Of a stretch of 52,640 nucleotides of DNA, positions 12,428 to 19,330 are shown in pieces. This DNA comes from Desulfuromonas sp. GTDB taxonomy: Bacteria; Desulfobacterota; Desulfuromonadia; Desulfuromonadales; Geothermobacteraceae. Each line of letters starts with the position of its first letter. Within the stretch, counting starts at the first letter, position 1. The stretch lies in contig PKUA01000027.1 of the NCBI GenBank assembly GCA_002868905.1, forward strand, positions 1-52,640, given 5' to 3'. The notes beneath the pieces were generated by a model. The model ran no database searches, was not told where the DNA came from, and saw only the letters and a list, made by a program, of their open reading frames with translations. The position numbers and the translations under genes are program-made.

Positions 12428-12835
12428 ATGAAGTTGAGAGTCTTACTCTTCGAGCAGAATCCTTCACTGCAAAGATTGCTGAAATCGTTTATCGAGGGGC
12501 GGGGTCACCGGGTCCAGGTCATGTCCGGAGAATACTCCTGCTCTCTTCATGAACTGGATGCCTGCAGCTGCCCCTCGGAGAAGCCGTGTGCCGATGCCGT
12601 CATCATCAACACCAGGATGGCGACCATTGAGAACATGCAAATCCTCGTTGACCAGGCAAAAAAAGGGTGCAAACTCCCGCGGCAGAATAAAGCGATTATG
12701 AACACGGTCTTCACGGAAAGCCTGGAGCAATCGGTTCGCGATCTCGGTTTCTCGACAATAAAACAACCTTTAAAGATGGCGGAAATCGCCGGATGGCTCA
12801 ACGAGTGTGGAGAAAGGGCTAAACTGGACGTTTGA
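12428..12835 (+). CDS. degenerate receiver-domain protein with a CxCx5C cluster
   Basis: The 135-residue protein has the length and strand/helix rhythm of a single CheY-like receiver: a hydrophobic first strand (KLRVLLFEQ), helix 1 (LQRLLKSFI), a third strand AVIINTRM and a final IKQPLK with the conserved Lys (K112). The acidic pair after strand 1 is E-Q, and the phosphoryl-accepting Asp is replaced by Asn61, so ordinary phosphorylation is not expected. Just before strand 3 it carries C46-x-C48-x5-C54-x-D56. The protein encoded at 12997-13422 has the same cluster at the same spacing but an intact Asp. It has a strong G-rich ribosome site (GGGGGGT). The function is unknown; metal binding or redox sensing is inference. 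Confidence 0.75.
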   Translation: MKLRVLLFEQNPSLQRLLKSFIEGRGHRVQVMSGEYSCSLHELDACSCPSEKPCADAVIINTRMATIENMQILVDQAKKGCKLPRQNKAIMNTVFTESLEQSVRDLGFSTIKQPLKMAEIAGWLNECGERAKLDV

Positions 12836-12996
12836 TACGGAAAAACGACCGGCCCGGAAACAAGGGCGATCGCTTTATTGATTCAACACAACAGCGGACC
12901 AGATGTCGGTCCCCGAAGAAAGGGGCCTGAATATTCAGCTCATTGCAGAACGAGAGAAATACACACAGGACCAAGATTCAATGAACGTCGTTCCTC

Positions 12997-13422
12997 TCAC
13001 GATTCCTCGATCATTGCCTTTTCGCGCTCTTCAATCCACTCGTAAATTTCCTGAAACTCGAACGGCTTATGAAACACTTCACAACCGAGTTCGCGCGCTT
13101 CCTGCTCCTCCTCTTCAACCAGCCAGCCTGAGATTAGAACCGTATTGCGAAAAATCCCGAGGCAACCGCACTGCGACAACTCCCTGACGAACTGAAGTCC
13201 CGTCATGTCCGGCATCTGCTGGTCTATGATGAGAAAGTCGCCGCAGCTTTCACCGGAGCGGCAGGGGCATGTACCATCAGTATCAAGGGGGAAATCACTC
13301 GCCTTCTCGTAGACCTCTACTTCGTGCCCCATTCTTTCCAGGCGTAACTGCAACGCCATCGTAAACCCGACATTGTCATCGATGATCACCGATTTAAAGG
13401 GTTTCCGCGTCGATGGTTCCAT
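12997..13422 (-). CDS. response-regulator receiver protein with a CxCx5C cluster
   Basis: This 141-residue stand-alone receiver has the acidic pair (D15, D16 in IIDDN), the phosphoryl-accepting D67 in LIIDQQMPDMTG, a Ser at the Thr/Ser switch (LISGW) and K119 (HKPF). Just before the D67 strand it carries C52-x-C54-x5-C60-x-D62, and a GC pair appears at residues 86-87. The start at 13422 is preferred over 13437 because GGAGGAG sits 6 bases upstream. It converges with its relative at 12428-12835 and lies beyond the cheA end of the chemotaxis island. It has no output domain, so it presumably acts by protein contact or as a phosphate sink. The role of the cysteines is unknown. Confidence 0.85.
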   Translation of the reverse strand: MEPSTRKPFKSVIIDDNVGFTMALQLRLERMGHEVEVYEKASDFPLDTDGTCPCRSGESCGDFLIIDQQMPDMTGLQFVRELSQCGCLGIFRNTVLISGWLVEEEEQEARELGCEVFHKPFEFQEIYEWIEEREKAMIEES

Positions 13423-13467
13423 GGGGGGCTCCTCCATCAGAATTGCACATGCTGCACTGCAACTAAC

Positions 13468-13751: not shown

Positions 13752-15878
13752 TCAAGAGAAGGTCTGAGTCGTGACCGGAACCAGATTCCCATCCTGGCGG
13801 GAGCGCGACTCTTCCAGGCGCATTAATGCAGGGAGGTCGAGGATAAGCGCGAGGCTGCCGTCACCCAGCACCGTCGCACCGGAAAGCCCTGGGATATCCC
13901 GGTACATCCGTCCGAGGGACTTAATGACGGTCTGGTGTTCGCCGATCACCTCGTCGACGGCGAAACCGAGGCGAAAACCATCAAGGTTCGCAATGATGAC
14001 CTGTTCGATATCGGGTATCCGGCCGTTGATCCCGAACTCACGGCGCAGGTGGAGATAGGGTACGATCTCATCACGGATGTGCAGAAGGTCGCGTCCATGC
14101 TGTCGCTCTACATCGGTCCGGTTCTGCTCGATGATCTCCTCGACCTGCGCCAGGGGCATGACAAATCGCTCTCTACCGATGCGGACCAGCAGGCCGTCAA
14201 TAATGGCCAGGGTCAGAGGCAGCTTGACGCGAAAACAGGTGCCCTCCCCACTGCTTGATTCGACCTCGACCGTCCCGCGCAGGTCTTCGATGGCCTTGCG
14301 AACGACGTCGAGGCCGACGCCTCGCCCTGAAATACTGGTTATGGCCTCCGAAGTGGAAAATCCGGCCGAAGAGATCAACTCCCACACGCCAACCTGGTTG
14401 AAATCCTCTCCCGGCTGCAGCATCCCTTTTTCCTCGGCACGCTCCCGGATCCAATCGTAATTCAGCCCGCGCCCGTCATCCCGGACCTCGACCAAAACCG
14501 AGGCACCGCTCTGAAAAGCACTCAACCGAATGCTCCCCTTTACCGGCTTACCGGCTGCGCTGCGTTGTTCCGGGAGCTCCAGTCCATGATCGATGGCATT
14601 ACGCAACAGGTGCAGGACAGGATCCGACAATCGCTCGATGACGGTCTTGTCGAGTTCCGTGTCGCCCCCGGAGGTGAGGAGTTGGACATCTTTGCCGAGT
14701 TCACGCGCCAGATCCCGCACCTGGCGGGCAAAGCGGTTAAAGGTCGAGCCGATCGGCACCATCCTGATGCTGAGAACTTCGTCCCGCAGTTCCCAGGTCA
14801 GCTGCTCGACCTCCTCGGATATTCGCTCCAGGTCAACATCGGAGATCGTGGTGGAGACCTGCTTGAGCCTGGCCTGCACCGTAACCAGTTCTCCGATCAG
14901 GTCAACCAGCTTGTCAAGCCGTTCCGAGCGGACCCGGACCGAGGCGGCGACCCGGGCTGCGTCATCCCCGCTGCCACTTTCCTGGCGTCGATCGGTTGCC
15001 GCCTGACGCCGGTCTGGCGTCATCGAACGTCTTTCCGGCCCGTTGTGTTCCGGCACCGGTTCGTCGTTTTGCGCAATAATGGAGTTGACATCCTCCGCTG
15101 TCGGCTTTTTCCCGGCCTCGAACAGGGGGAGCCAGGCCTGCCAGGCCTGTTCTAAATTCAACCTGCCGGAATCATCGAGCAGCTCAATGCCGAGTTCGCT
15201 CTCGTCTTCGACAAAGATAAACAGGTCCTGGATATCGATCGTGGACTGCGCGGTTGTCAGCAGAATGTTCCAGACGACGTGACAAGCGGTCGGTTCAAAA
15301 TCCTCAAACGATGCAGGAGCGTCATATCCGGCCGAAACCCTGGCATCTCCCATACGCGTCAGCTCACGTACCAGATTGGCAGGGTCGAGGCCGCGCTCGA
15401 AGACATCGACCGGTGGGCGGAACCTTACCCAGAAAGTACTGTGACTCCCCACGGTTGCGGGCATATCGTCCCGGGCTGTTTCCTCTTCGCTGACGACTGC
15501 ATCAATGATATCGACCTGCAACCCGCCCAGATGTTCGACCAAGGAAGCTATGTCCTGTTGACTGACCGAGTCTTCATCGGCTGCCAGCGCCTGAATCGTA
15601 TCCTGGGCCTGCAGGGTCAGGTCGATCAAAACGGAGCTGACCTCGATGCTGCCACTGCGAACGTCCTCGAAGAGTGCCTCGACGTGATGAGTAAAGCCTG
15701 CGAGTCGATCGAAACCTGCCAGTGCCCCGGACCCCTTGATCGTATGCAAGGCACGAAACACGCGGTTAACCGATTCGCTGTCGGATGGCGACTCTTCAAG
15801 CTTAAGGAGCCCACCTTCCAGGTCGGCCAGCAGTTCCTGAAGTTCTTCCCTGAATGTCTCCTGCAGAATATCGCTCAT
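13752..15878 (-). CDS. cheA: chemotaxis histidine kinase CheA (downstream set)
   Basis: The 708-residue kinase has the CheA layout: an Hpt domain with phospho-His H45 in ALHTIKGSG, a middle region (about 145-240) resembling a CheY-binding P2 domain, an acidic/charged linker with repeated RRQ segments (about 280-300), a dimerisation helix pair (about 310-375), the HATPase domain with LLRNAIDHGLE, DDGRGL and GRGVGLDVV, and a C-terminal CheW-like P5 domain ending LPALMRLEE. It autophosphorylates under receptor control and passes the phosphate to CheY and CheB. Its ATG overlaps the cheY stop by 4 bases. It is the last gene of its set and is closely related to the kinase at 24980-27100. Confidence 0.96.
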   Translation of the reverse strand: MSDILQETFREELQELLADLEGGLLKLEESPSDSESVNRVFRALHTIKGSGALAGFDRLAGFTHHVEALFEDVRSGSIEVSSVLIDLTLQAQDTIQALAADEDSVSQQDIASLVEHLGGLQVDIIDAVVSEEETARDDMPATVGSHSTFWVRFRPPVDVFERGLDPANLVRELTRMGDARVSAGYDAPASFEDFEPTACHVVWNILLTTAQSTIDIQDLFIFVEDESELGIELLDDSGRLNLEQAWQAWLPLFEAGKKPTAEDVNSIIAQNDEPVPEHNGPERRSMTPDRRQAATDRRQESGSGDDAARVAASVRVRSERLDKLVDLIGELVTVQARLKQVSTTISDVDLERISEEVEQLTWELRDEVLSIRMVPIGSTFNRFARQVRDLARELGKDVQLLTSGGDTELDKTVIERLSDPVLHLLRNAIDHGLELPEQRSAAGKPVKGSIRLSAFQSGASVLVEVRDDGRGLNYDWIRERAEEKGMLQPGEDFNQVGVWELISSAGFSTSEAITSISGRGVGLDVVRKAIEDLRGTVEVESSSGEGTCFRVKLPLTLAIIDGLLVRIGRERFVMPLAQVEEIIEQNRTDVERQHGRDLLHIRDEIVPYLHLRREFGINGRIPDIEQVIIANLDGFRLGFAVDEVIGEHQTVIKSLGRMYRDIPGLSGATVLGDGSLALILDLPALMRLEESRSRQDGNLVPVTTQTFS

Positions 15879-16240
15879 GGCATGACCATACGGACGACAC
15901 CGAGAACCTGCTCGGGCCGGAAAGGTTTGACAATCCAGCCGGAAGCACCGGCGAGTTTCCCCCTCTGCTTGATACCGTCATTCGTTTCGGTCGTCAGCAT
16001 GATAATTGGCATAAACCGGTTGCCGGGGATTTTTCGCACCTGCTCGATCAACTCGATCCCATCGATCTGTGGCATATTGAGGTCGGTCACCAGCATATCG
16101 AACTGCTGTTCACGCACCATATTCAGAGCCTCACCACCGTCCTGAGCCTCGTAAACTTCGTAGCCGGCCTCACTCAGTGTCAGCCTGAGCAACTGCCTGA
16201 CGGTCGGTGAATCATCGACCGCCAATATTTTTCTCGCCAT
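15875..16240 (-). CDS. cheY: CheY-type receiver (downstream set)
   Basis: The 121-residue single receiver has D9/D10 (AVDDS), phosphoryl-accepting D53 in LVTDLNMPQ, the switch Thr in MLTTE and the conserved Lys in IVKPF. The tail EQVLGVVRMVMP is identical in all three CheY-type proteins of the island. Its stop overlaps the cheA start by 4 bases (ATGA), so kinase and receiver are translationally coupled. It probably receives phosphate from CheA and carries the signal to the motor or to another output. The upstream neighbour is a STAS protein, 38 bases away. Confidence 0.93.
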   Translation of the reverse strand: MARKILAVDDSPTVRQLLRLTLSEAGYEVYEAQDGGEALNMVREQQFDMLVTDLNMPQIDGIELIEQVRKIPGNRFMPIIMLTTETNDGIKQRGKLAGASGWIVKPFRPEQVLGVVRMVMP

Positions 16241-16278
16241 CTCACATCCCCTGGTTCATATGAGCGCTGCTATCTGAC

Positions 16279-16608
16279 TCAAACCGGCTGGGTCAAACTG
16301 TCATAACCGTCTCGCATCCTGGCAAACTGCTCCGAGAACCCGGCCTGCGAAATAAAATCCTCGATGTCCTTGGAAATCGTCCCGACCAGATGGAAAGCCA
16401 GCCCCTTTTGCACGGCAGCGTGACCTGTCGCCAACAGAAGCTGCATTCCACACGTATCGATCTTTTTAACATTAGTGAGATCGATTCTCAAATCATTATG
16501 ATCGTCCATCAGCATTTGCATTTCATCCAGTGCCGCAGGTATAGAATGCAGAGTCAATTCCTGCCGGAACAGATGCGAGTCGGTTTGCATCTCTTCAGTC
16601 TCCATCAT
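16279..16608 (-). CDS. STAS-domain protein (downstream set)
   Basis: The 109-residue protein is a single STAS (anti-anti-sigma-like) domain: LRIDLTNVKKIDTCGMQLLLATGHAA and a C-terminal FISQAGFSEQF. In SpoIIAA the phosphorylated residue is the second Ser of DSSG; here the motif is D-T-C-G, so that site is Cys. This form is closer to MlaB-like or chemotaxis-cluster STAS proteins than to sporulation regulators. The ribosome site GGAAAGG supports the ATG at 16608. It sits just before cheY-cheA, and a relative sits at the same place in the other set, so it is probably a signalling partner. The partner is unknown. Confidence 0.82.
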   Translation of the reverse strand: MMETEEMQTDSHLFRQELTLHSIPAALDEMQMLMDDHNDLRIDLTNVKKIDTCGMQLLLATGHAAVQKGLAFHLVGTISKDIEDFISQAGFSEQFARMRDGYDSLTQPV

Positions 16609-16756
16609 GTTGGCCTTTCCTGTCTGAGCGCAACGTCATCCCCCGGCTCATGTGTAAACCGGTTCTCTGTCATCACGCCCCGGGACGCTGACCGATGCAT
16701 CTCCAATCATACGAACCCCGGTTACATAATCAAGCATGCCGGTCTTATTATTGCTT

Positions 16757-16856
16757 CGGTGATTAAACATTGAACTGTAGGGGCGGCGCTTGCTCCGCCC
16801 TGGGGCGCGGCAAGAAGCGCCCCTACCAATTCAGGATTTGGATATTTATCCACTGG
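16757..16856 (+). repeat. dispersed hairpin repeat, copy 2 (long form) inside a che operon
   Basis: This copy lies in the 272-base gap between cheW (stop at 16881) and the STAS gene (start at 16608). It has the same left end (CGGTGATTAAAC) and right end (GATTTGGATATTTATCC, CACTGG) as the copy at 4031-4109. Its centre holds two hairpins, AGGGGCGG...CCGCCCT and GGGGCGCGG...GCGCCCCT, against one in the short copy. It has no coding capacity. Because cheW and STAS are otherwise in one operon, the element may have inserted there, and its hairpins could reduce read-through. Confidence 0.75.
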
Positions 16857-16880
16857 AGCAATATAAAGGGAAAAGAGATC

Positions 16881-17408
16881 TTAATTTTCGAGAGTTGGCG
16901 GTACTTCTTCCTCTTCAGCAGCGGCGAAGTTGCCAACATCCTGCACCAACGCAAGCTCGTCACTGCTGAACACCCGGTCGATGTTCAAAAGAATAATGAA
17001 CTGGTCGTTCACCCTCCCCATTCCGTGAATGAATTCAGTCTGGAGTCTGGAACCGAGGCGGGGTGCCGGCTCGATCTGATCGTCCCTGATTTCGAGGACT
17101 TCCCGAACAGCGTCCGCCATGGCACCGACCACAATGGGCTCGCCATCGACTTCGACTTCCAGAACGACAATACAGGTATCCCGGCTCTCCTTCCCGGCCT
17201 CCATGCCGAGCTTGAGGCGCATATCGATCACCGGCACGACCTGACCACGCAGGTTAATCACCCCGAGCATGTAGTCGGGGGTCTGCGGTACGGCGGTGAC
17301 CGAGATCAGGGTCAAAACTTCCCGTGTCCGATACACCTCGACGCCAAACAACTCCTCAGCAAGTTGAAAAGTTACGAACTGTCTGCTTGCTACGTTACTC
17401 TCGCTCAT
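16881..17408 (-). CDS. cheW: chemotaxis coupling protein CheW (downstream set)
   Basis: The 175-residue protein is a single CheW/SH3-like domain that couples receptors to CheA. Typical segments are FQLAEELFGVEVYRTREVL, TAVPQTPDYMLGVINLRGQVVPVIDMRLKLGM and the acidic C-terminal tail. It lies 8 bases downstream of the receptor gene, the same gap found between the receptor remnant and cheW in the other set. It is about 20 residues longer than many CheW proteins because of an acidic N- and C-terminal extension. Co-expression with the receptor is very likely. Confidence 0.95.
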   Translation of the reverse strand: MSESNVASRQFVTFQLAEELFGVEVYRTREVLTLISVTAVPQTPDYMLGVINLRGQVVPVIDMRLKLGMEAGKESRDTCIVVLEVEVDGEPIVVGAMADAVREVLEIRDDQIEPAPRLGSRLQTEFIHGMGRVNDQFIILLNIDRVFSSDELALVQDVGNFAAAEEEEVPPTLEN

Positions 17409-17416
17409 ACCTGGCC

Positions 17417-19210
17417 TCAGTAAGCTTCGAATTCATGATCGAGGGAAGAATCGTCCTTCAGGTTGATCTCGACCCCCTGAAAACCGCGACCCTTACCATT
17501 CTCGCCACGAACTGCATCGATCTGGGGAATTCTCGGTTGTGCCGGTTTCCCTGCAGGCGTTCTGCTGGAGGTCTGTTCGGTTTGACGTCTGACTCCGCCT
17601 TCGTTCATGACGAAAAAACTGATCATCTCTGCCAGCTGCTCAGATTGGCTTGAAAGCTCCTCGGCAGTGCTCGCCATCTCCTCGGAAGAGGACGCGTTCT
17701 GCTGAATGACGGTGTCGAGCTGCATGATCCCCTTGGAAATCTGCTCGGCCCCGGAATCCTGCTCTTTACTGGCAGCGGATATCTCCTGAACCAGCTCCGC
17801 CGTTTTCTGGATATTCGGCACCAGACCCTGCAGCACGGTGCCGGCCCTCTCGGCGACGTCGACACTGCTGGTTGAGAGATCATTGATCTCTCCGGCGGCG
17901 ACCTGGCTCCGTTCGGCCAGCTTGCGCACCTCGGCGGCGACCACCGCGAACCCCTTGCCGTGCTCGCCGGCCCGGGCCGCCTCGATCGCCGCGTTCAGGG
18001 CGAGCAGGTTGGTCTGACGTGCGATCTCCTCGATGATCATGATCTTTTCAGCGATGTTCTTCATGGCGCCGACGGTCCGGTCGACCGCATCACCGCCCTC
18101 CTGGGCATCGCTGGCCGCCTGCTGGGCGATCTTCTCGGTCTGAATGGCATTATCGGCATTCTGGCGGATGTTGGCCGTCATCTCCTCGACACTGGAAGAC
18201 GCTTCTTCCGCCGCAGCCGCCTGCTCGGACGCGCCCTGGGACATCTCCTCGCTGGAGGCGCTCATCGCCTGGGCGCCGGCAGAGACGTTTTCGATGGCAA
18301 ACTTAACCCCGAGAATAACCTCTTTCAACTTTCCGACCATGTTGGAGAGAGACTGAATCAGGATATCCTTGTCGGAACGCACTTTCAATTTGACTTCAAG
18401 GTCGCCGGCTGCAATTTTGCCGGCAGCCTCGGCCACCTCCTTGTTCGATGCGACCATCTCCTTCATCGCGGCCAACAACTGTCCGGTTTCGTCCCGGCTG
18501 GTCTCCCTGATGTCGACGGTCATGTCACCGACCGCCATCGCCCGGGCGGTGGTCACGGCGAGGGCGAGCGGACGGGTAATGCTGGTGGTAATGAATATGG
18601 CGATCAGGCAGCCGAGGAGCAGGGCGATACCGCCGAGAATAGCCTGCGAGGTCTTGACCCGATCCGAGGCCGCAAGAATCGAAGCGGCCATCTCGTTGGC
18701 CTCTTCGACCTGGCTCTGCTGAAACAGAGTAACCGCCTTGGCAAGAGAGGACGTATCACCGTCAAACTCTTCCATCACCCGGTTGCCCCCTTCCAGCCCG
18801 TCATTGACATAAGCGGTGACCATCCTCTGCCCGGTCTCGAACGCCTCGTCCATGGCTGCCATCAGATCATCCATCTGCCGCAGGCCATCCGAGTCATTTT
18901 CGCTCCGGAACATGGCCCTGAACTTCTCGACTCCGGCTTTAAATTTTTGGTAGTGGGTTTTTGCCTCCCCGACCGCCTCTTGATTTTGCGTCAAAGCAGC
19001 GTCGGTCATCAGCTGGTTGACCTGCACGGTACTGACAACCATCTCGTCAGCCAGCAGAGTGAAAGGCAGACTCTCATCGATGACATGGTTGGTGCTCTGC
19101 TCCACTGTCTGCAACGCCATGAAGGTCGCGACAAAGGCAACCAGCATGAGTATTAGAACGGCACTGAAACCGACCCCCATCCGCGTTCCGATTTTCAGAT
19201 TTTTCAGCAT
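17417..19210 (-). CDS. methyl-accepting chemotaxis protein
   Basis: The 597-residue receptor has TM1 (about residues 11-33), a periplasmic helical domain of about 150 residues, TM2 ([15 protein letters not shown]), a HAMP domain followed by a second HAMP-like segment, and a cytoplasmic signalling hairpin with tip [22 protein letters not shown]. The tail is a flexible linker ending EFEAY, matching the x-[aromatic]-x-x-[aromatic] pentapeptide that tethers CheR/CheB. The ATG at 19210 is chosen over 19282 because GAGGAG lies 8 bases upstream and the protein then begins directly before TM1. It leads the operon with cheW. The ligand is unknown. Confidence 0.94.
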
Positions 19211-19330
19211 TATTTTCTCTCCTCGTTTATGGTGGAGCACTGATCGCAAGCTGCGTCGTTGCAGGCCTGCGTTGAACAACACCCGCTCTCCCCGGCATTA
19301 TTAGGGACGTGTAAGTGCACTACTTATCTC

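Follow-up and report, generated by a model that had tools for sequence, protein, structure and literature searches.

Conserved cysteines, likely a metal or redox site, in a family of small single-domain receivers found at a Desulfuromonas locus

The window analysed here, a stretch of 52,640 nucleotides from a contig of Desulfuromonas sp. (PKUA01000027.1), contains two neighbouring genes that encode small receiver proteins, named A and B in our study. The genes lie on the plus and the minus strand, respectively, and are convergent, as an earlier note made from the sequence alone had described them. The features needed in what follows are these:

12428-12835, plus strand: gene of protein A, 135 aa, a single-domain pseudo-receiver
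12539-12589, plus strand: cysteine loop of A, with the codons of C38 (12539-12541), C46 (12563-12565), C48 (12569-12571) and C54 (12587-12589)
12608-12610, plus strand: codon of Asn61 of A, which occupies the position of the phosphoryl Asp
12668-12670, plus strand: codon of C81 of A, within KGCK, before strand beta4
12997-13422, minus strand: gene of protein B, a single-domain receiver of 141 aa when translated from the ATG at 13422, or of 146 aa with a start at 13437
13243-13269, minus strand: cysteine loop of B, with the codons of C52 (13267-13269), C54 (13261-13263) and C60 (13243-13245)
13222-13224, minus strand: codon of Asp67 of B, the phosphoryl site
13162-13170, minus strand: codons of C85 and C87 of B (CGC), of which C87 is aligned with C81 of A

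Each protein has six cysteines (C38, C46, C48, C54, C81 and C127 in A; C52, C54, C60, C85, C87 and C114 in B). The earlier note had reported that C46, C48, C54 and D56 of A and C52, C54, C60 and D62 of B form one and the same motif, C-x-C-x5-C-x-D, before a phosphoryl position occupied by Asn61 in A and by Asp67 in B; all of these residues were found where they had been placed. Our alignment of the two proteins shows that they share four cysteine columns among 135 aligned (hypergeometric P 1.7e-5 for six cysteines in each), the fourth being C81 of A and C87 of B, 20 residues past the phosphoryl position. The spacing is C38-x7-C46-x-C48-x5-C54, plus C81, in A, and CxCx5C, plus C87, in B. As a control we used 30 ordinary receivers of the same genome, namely its best 30 matches to PF00072: any cysteine in the 25 residues before the Asp was present in 4 of them, and three cysteines in none. 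An Asp five residues before the phosphoryl Asp was present in 22 of the 30 (one of the 30 had its Asp misplaced by the script), and the Asp of the motif, D56 in A, is for this reason an ordinary receiver residue. The motif is thus real, but it had been drawn without C38 and C81 and with a generic Asp included.

With regard to the active site, B possesses D15, D16, D67, S98 and K119, which is the complete D, D, D, S/T, K set as judged from its sequence; the corresponding residues of A are E9, Q10, N61, N92 and Q113, and the full phosphorylatable set is absent from its translation. B matches PF00072 with an E value of 3.3e-8, above the Pfam cut-off, and A is unmatched in Pfam at E 0.001. No specific family for either protein was found in NCBIfam, and a sequence search of solved structures with B returned generic receivers only. 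A plasmid search with B gave no match, and the viral contigs searched yielded a single weak relative (L262, 31%), with no match to the family model described below at E 1e-6.

The AlphaFold model of B (mean pLDDT 88.2, pTM 0.83) predicts the beta-alpha five-fold receiver fold; its best match among receiver domains is the ArlR receiver (Z 17.4, rmsd 1.9, 118 residues aligned). In the AlphaFold model of A, the predicted order of strands and helices agrees with this fold. Residues 44-62 of B, which include C52, C54 and C60, are modelled as a loop at the position expected for helix alpha2, followed by strand beta3 (63-67), which ends at Asp67; C87 is modelled within the loop 85-93, between helix alpha3 and strand beta4. 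The cysteine loop is the lowest-confidence part of both models, with block means of 68-74 in B and 53-59 in A. Strands beta3 and beta4 are neighbours in the receiver topology, and because of this both cysteine-bearing loops would be located at the sheet end distal to Asp67.

The ATG of B at 13422 is preceded by a GGAGGAG stretch. The next gene upstream on this strand is cheA, separated from B by 315 bases. A promoter-like match is present between cheA and B; the region holds 2 such matches, against 1.3 expected by chance. A chemotaxis-like cluster that encodes CheA, CheY, STAS and CheW extends upstream of B (window positions 13752-19282, minus strand), and it also contains a frame that we read by eye as a chemoreceptor.

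A and B belong to a large family of small single-domain receivers. The genome of the window encodes eight members, of which one is interrupted by an in-frame stop. The alignment of the seven intact ones has invariant columns at C54, C60, D62, C87, N93, P120 and E125 (B numbering), and the phosphoryl Asp is not among these seven columns. A scores 187.5 bits against the family model, for which it is one of the seven training sequences. The possibility that A and B are recent local duplicates was rejected: they are 23% identical, and each is closer to other rows of the family (nearest row to A, 47% identity; nearest intact row to B, 39%). The closest relative of B, at 58% identity, is a broken paralogue with an in-frame TAA (L002 / L181; G000:C69:3302-3688, minus strand), situated directly after a gene whose product we read by eye as a sensor histidine kinase, its N-terminal part resembling a solute-binding protein. 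The same genome also has a receiver-like sequence that matches B weakly and has neither the cysteine loop nor the core cysteines (L009; G000:C17:12884-13195, plus strand). Since only four of the eight members in the genome of the window, A not among them, are recovered by PF00072 above its cut-off, standard annotation undercounts the family.

Members of the family were identified in 74 of the 136 genomes of the window's order (E 1e-16 or better, 30 candidates scored per genome), with up to 9 matches per genome among the 30 candidates scored in each. In a draw from the phylum they were present in 8 of 297 genomes, five of the 8 belonging to the window's order, and in a second draw, made with a different alignment, in 2 of 148. 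The family is therefore frequent in this order and rare in the remaining sample of the phylum. A scan of named genomes gave 80 loci, 34 of which (L182-L215, three of them fragments) reach at least 86 bits against the family model; the other loci listed score 69 bits or less and show no visible cysteine loop. The records of the 34 loci are mostly named as Desulfuromonadales or 'Deltaproteobacteria', and three as Nitrospirota (L192, L193 and L205); the open frame around L192 is 258 aa long and that around L205 is 252 aa long. Cultured species with a member include Desulfuromusa kysingii (L207) and Pelovirga terrestris (L204). The literature searched, the coverage of which leaves out preprints and most subscription papers, gave no account of this family.

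In order to evaluate the conservation of the cysteines, 100 regions were fetched, which yielded 142 distinct stretches matching the model; 26 stretches below 75 bits were set aside and the broken row L002 was dropped, leaving 115 rows, which represent the genome of the window plus the best-scoring matches among those listed from the searches of the order, the phylum and the window's genome. The 75-bit line was placed after a gap in the scores, between 77.4 and 40.3 bits, had been viewed. Alignment A3 has rows in common with these 115 and does not constitute an independent count. In A numbering, three core cysteines are near-invariant (C48 in 114 of the 115 rows, C54 in 112 and C81 in 113) and are present together in 109 rows, A and B included. 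D56 is conserved in 105 rows, C38 in 89, C108 in 74 and C127 in 57; C46, the first cysteine of the motif, is a cysteine in only 61 and hence optional. Accordingly, the proposal of the earlier note that the cysteines are functional is well supported by C48, C54 and C81, which do not vary freely in the family; the free variation that the note had named as a refutation does apply to C46. The phosphoryl Asp is kept in 98 of the 115 rows. When the rows were reduced to 82 at <60% identity, C48 was present in 82, C54 in 80, C81 in 81 and the phosphoryl Asp in 68. Judging from these alignments, the family appears to keep its core cysteines more faithfully than its phosphorylation site.

It is important to consider that the profile was trained on cysteine-bearing paralogues and that the best matches were taken first, so that our sample leans towards cysteine-bearing rows. 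It is doubtful that this bias causes the conservation observed, because typical members score 100 to 200 bits and members without the cysteines should still pass 75; no intermediate scores were seen inside the gap. Nor is the retention of the cysteines a mere matter of recency, given a median pairwise identity of 31% in the family. A core cysteine is missing from the alignment in six of the 115 rows, among them L080, which is apparently misaligned. In four related rows (L175, L177, L208 and L211, the last two being Desulfuromusa records), C54 is replaced by Thr, Glu or Asp. His at a core position is almost absent: a single His is aligned there, and the row concerned has a further Cys next to it.

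Beyond the core, 112 of the 115 rows have an additional cysteine in residues 33-47. In the reduced set, C38 and C46 are both present in 30 of the 82 rows, and three of the 82 have no cysteine in residues 33-47. The idea that C38 and C46 are mutually exclusive as a fourth ligand was not supported (Fisher p 0.58), and the pairs with C108 and C127, tested likewise, were not significant at 0.05.

The phosphoryl Asp is absent from 17 of the 115 rows, where it is replaced by Asn (8), Gly (4), Ser (3), Thr (1) or Gln (1), and all 17 keep the three core cysteines, compared with 92 of the 98 rows that have the Asp. On our tree, which was built from few columns, leaves 45 of 100 inner branches open and has B on a long branch of unsure placement, the Asp was lost at least seven times. 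A belongs to a branch of seven rows that have only Asn at this position (SH-aLRT 92, not starred); C38, C46, C48, C54 and C81 are present in all seven, which represent four or more families within the order (G000, G006, G011, G020, G051, G080 and G132), and the active site of A (E Q N N Q) is the most degenerate among them. There is also a Ser branch (L072, L118 and L119; MIISNRMAKMSG) that lost the phosphoryl Asp and kept five cysteines. Gly occupies the position in L028, L029, L030 and L081, all with the core cysteines and three of the four without C38 and C46.

These observations bear on one account of the cysteines, in which they are a structural or lineage relic with no role as ligands or in sensing. 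The concentration of the family in one order agrees with such a relic, but the near-invariance despite a median identity of 31%, the retention of the cysteines where the phosphoryl Asp was lost and the existence of members in Nitrospirota records argue against it, and we consider it highly improbable. The cysteines very probably constitute a conserved functional site of some kind, and this is likely to be a metal or redox site. Because the cysteines are kept more faithfully than the phosphorylation site, these proteins may be sensors of redox or of metal, either in addition to switching by phosphate or in its stead. The suggestion of the earlier note that the cysteines gate or replace phosphorylation agrees with the data and no more than that, in that all 17 members lacking the phosphoryl Asp retain them.

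The genes around the members do not point to a shared partner. The scan covered 47 same-strand neighbours within 250 bp of members, from a list with 134 others, and HATPase_c was found in 4 of the 47 and HisKA in 4; with only 4 of 47 for each, a conserved partner gene was rejected, and members are mostly not adjoining kinases. The neighbours of the Asn-branch members vary by locus (8 proteins). In a single case, the gene directly upstream of an Asn-branch member codes for a protein with a rubrerythrin domain (L133:1802-2395, plus strand). The flanks fetched around the six other Asn-branch loci gave no second member of the family, so the neighbouring pair, to which the earlier note had attached meaning, is not borne out as a conserved unit.

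If the cysteines bind metal, one form that the site could take is a structural zinc site, in which four thiols would pin the loop that replaces helix alpha2 to the loop between alpha3 and beta4, the zinc would remain unsensed and the signal would be carried by phosphorylation or partner binding. Three fixed thiols and one more suit a tetrathiolate site. A loop that replaces a helix often needs a metal staple, and the loop found in place of the helix in the model of B suits such a role; moreover, the active site is complete in the majority of members (58 of the 82 reduced rows). On the other hand, the fourth ligand is not fixed and the core cysteines are hardly ever swapped for His, both of which are less usual for zinc sites, and the CxCx5C pattern is, to our knowledge, not that of a common zinc knuckle. 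None of these objections is decisive, and we regard structural zinc as somewhat unlikely.

Among the systems already described, the one nearest in kind to the A/B family is FixT of Caulobacter. According to its report (PMC7078487), FixT is a single-domain receiver that binds an Fe-S cluster through C53, C56, C59 and C64; the cluster is oxygen-sensitive and protects FixT from Lon, FixT inhibits the autophosphorylation of FixL, this inhibition of the kinase in vitro is independent of the cluster, phosphorylation of FixT was never observed and the cysteine motif is stated to be restricted to Caulobacter. Like FixT, A (135 aa) and B (141 aa) are single-domain proteins with at least four cysteines and no output domain. 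The cysteines of FixT, however, follow the spacing C-x2-C-x2-C-x4-C in one stretch, from which that of A and B differs, and for this reason we have not filed the family as FixT-type; in addition, the near-invariant candidate ligand C81 comes from the alpha3-beta4 region, and the family occurs in phyla other than that of Caulobacter FixT. An unannotated open frame next to FixJ on pSymA of S. meliloti is putatively FixT1. This frame scored 7.3 bits against the family model (E 0.044), and it has two cysteines shortly before a DDD stretch that we read as strand beta3, which would suggest that C64 of FixT falls in the alpha2-beta3 region, as the cysteines of A and B do.

The family shares the receiver fold with CheY-type single-domain receivers (PF00072), and B has the five active-site residues; it differs from them in having a cysteine loop in the place of helix alpha2, together with fixed cysteines. 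The Asn branch, to which A belongs, and the Ser and Gly branches resemble the pseudo-receivers treated in a review (PMC12632262) in lacking the phosphoryl Asp; the difference is that the loss of Asp in the A/B family goes with a retained cysteine cluster in 17 of 17 cases. The review states that the control of pseudo-receivers is unsolved; it uses none of the words cysteine, FixT, Fe-S and zinc, and it describes switches of the RitR and HP1021 type, as 'Cys' (PMC12632262). RitR and HP1021 (PMC12632262; also PMC5965902) provide a likeness as receiver-type regulators controlled via Cys and not via Asp, and a difference, since they dimerise by a disulfide that involves one Cys and carry a DNA-binding domain, whereas the A/B family has at least four cysteines and no output domain.

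A further reading is a thiol-disulfide switch, formed inside one monomer or between monomers, in which the cysteines would be free of metal. Redox-active cysteines are known in receiver-type regulators, RitR and HP1021/Cj1608 dimerising via Cys in the account of the review (PMC12632262), but these proteins rely on one Cys, situated either in the alpha1-beta2 loop or in a linker. The A/B family has three fixed thiols and one or more others, kept jointly in 17 of 17 Asp-less members, which exceeds what a switch needs. We consider such a switch quite improbable.

Our preferred reading is that the cysteines ligate a metal centre, most likely a labile Fe-S cluster; we give the Fe-S cluster somewhat less than an even chance. 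Desulfuromonadales are mostly anaerobic, and it is these mostly anaerobic hosts, together with the precedent of FixT, the near-absence of His at the core cysteines and the variable fourth ligand, that lead us to favour Fe-S over zinc or bare thiols, none of these reasons being decisive. Counting against the Fe-S reading are the low model confidence of the cysteine loop, a fourth ligand that is not fixed, the six rows that lack a core cysteine, the leaning of the sample towards cysteine-bearing rows and the neighbour scan, in which no Fe-S or redox partner gene consistently adjoined the members. In the mechanism that we propose for an Fe-S centre, four thiolates would meet at the far end of the sheet, across from the phosphorylation site, and ligate the metal centre, most likely an oxygen- or redox-labile cluster, the presence or oxidation state of which would set the stability or the shape of the receiver. 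The receiver would then act through binding; this is proposed because there is no output domain, and by analogy with FixT the target would be a kinase or another partner. Those members in which the active site is complete, such as B, could combine phosphorylation with the signal of the cluster, and Asn members, such as A, could read the cluster alone.

Extended to the family, this leads to a tentative scenario, possible in our estimation and held with some doubt, in which a metal or Fe-S centre, held by cysteines on the domain face remote from the phosphorylation site, would have taken over from phosphate as the input of a whole family of receivers in anaerobes. The Asp members would respond to both signals, and the Asn branch, A included, would be a pure redox or metal sensor that binds partners, as would the Ser and Gly branches. 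The family offers a natural series of receivers with and without the phosphoryl Asp in which the cysteines are kept, and this makes a second input directly testable. Receivers with a cysteine cluster would become a general device through a family that has several paralogues in each genome of anaerobes which reduce metals and sulfur.
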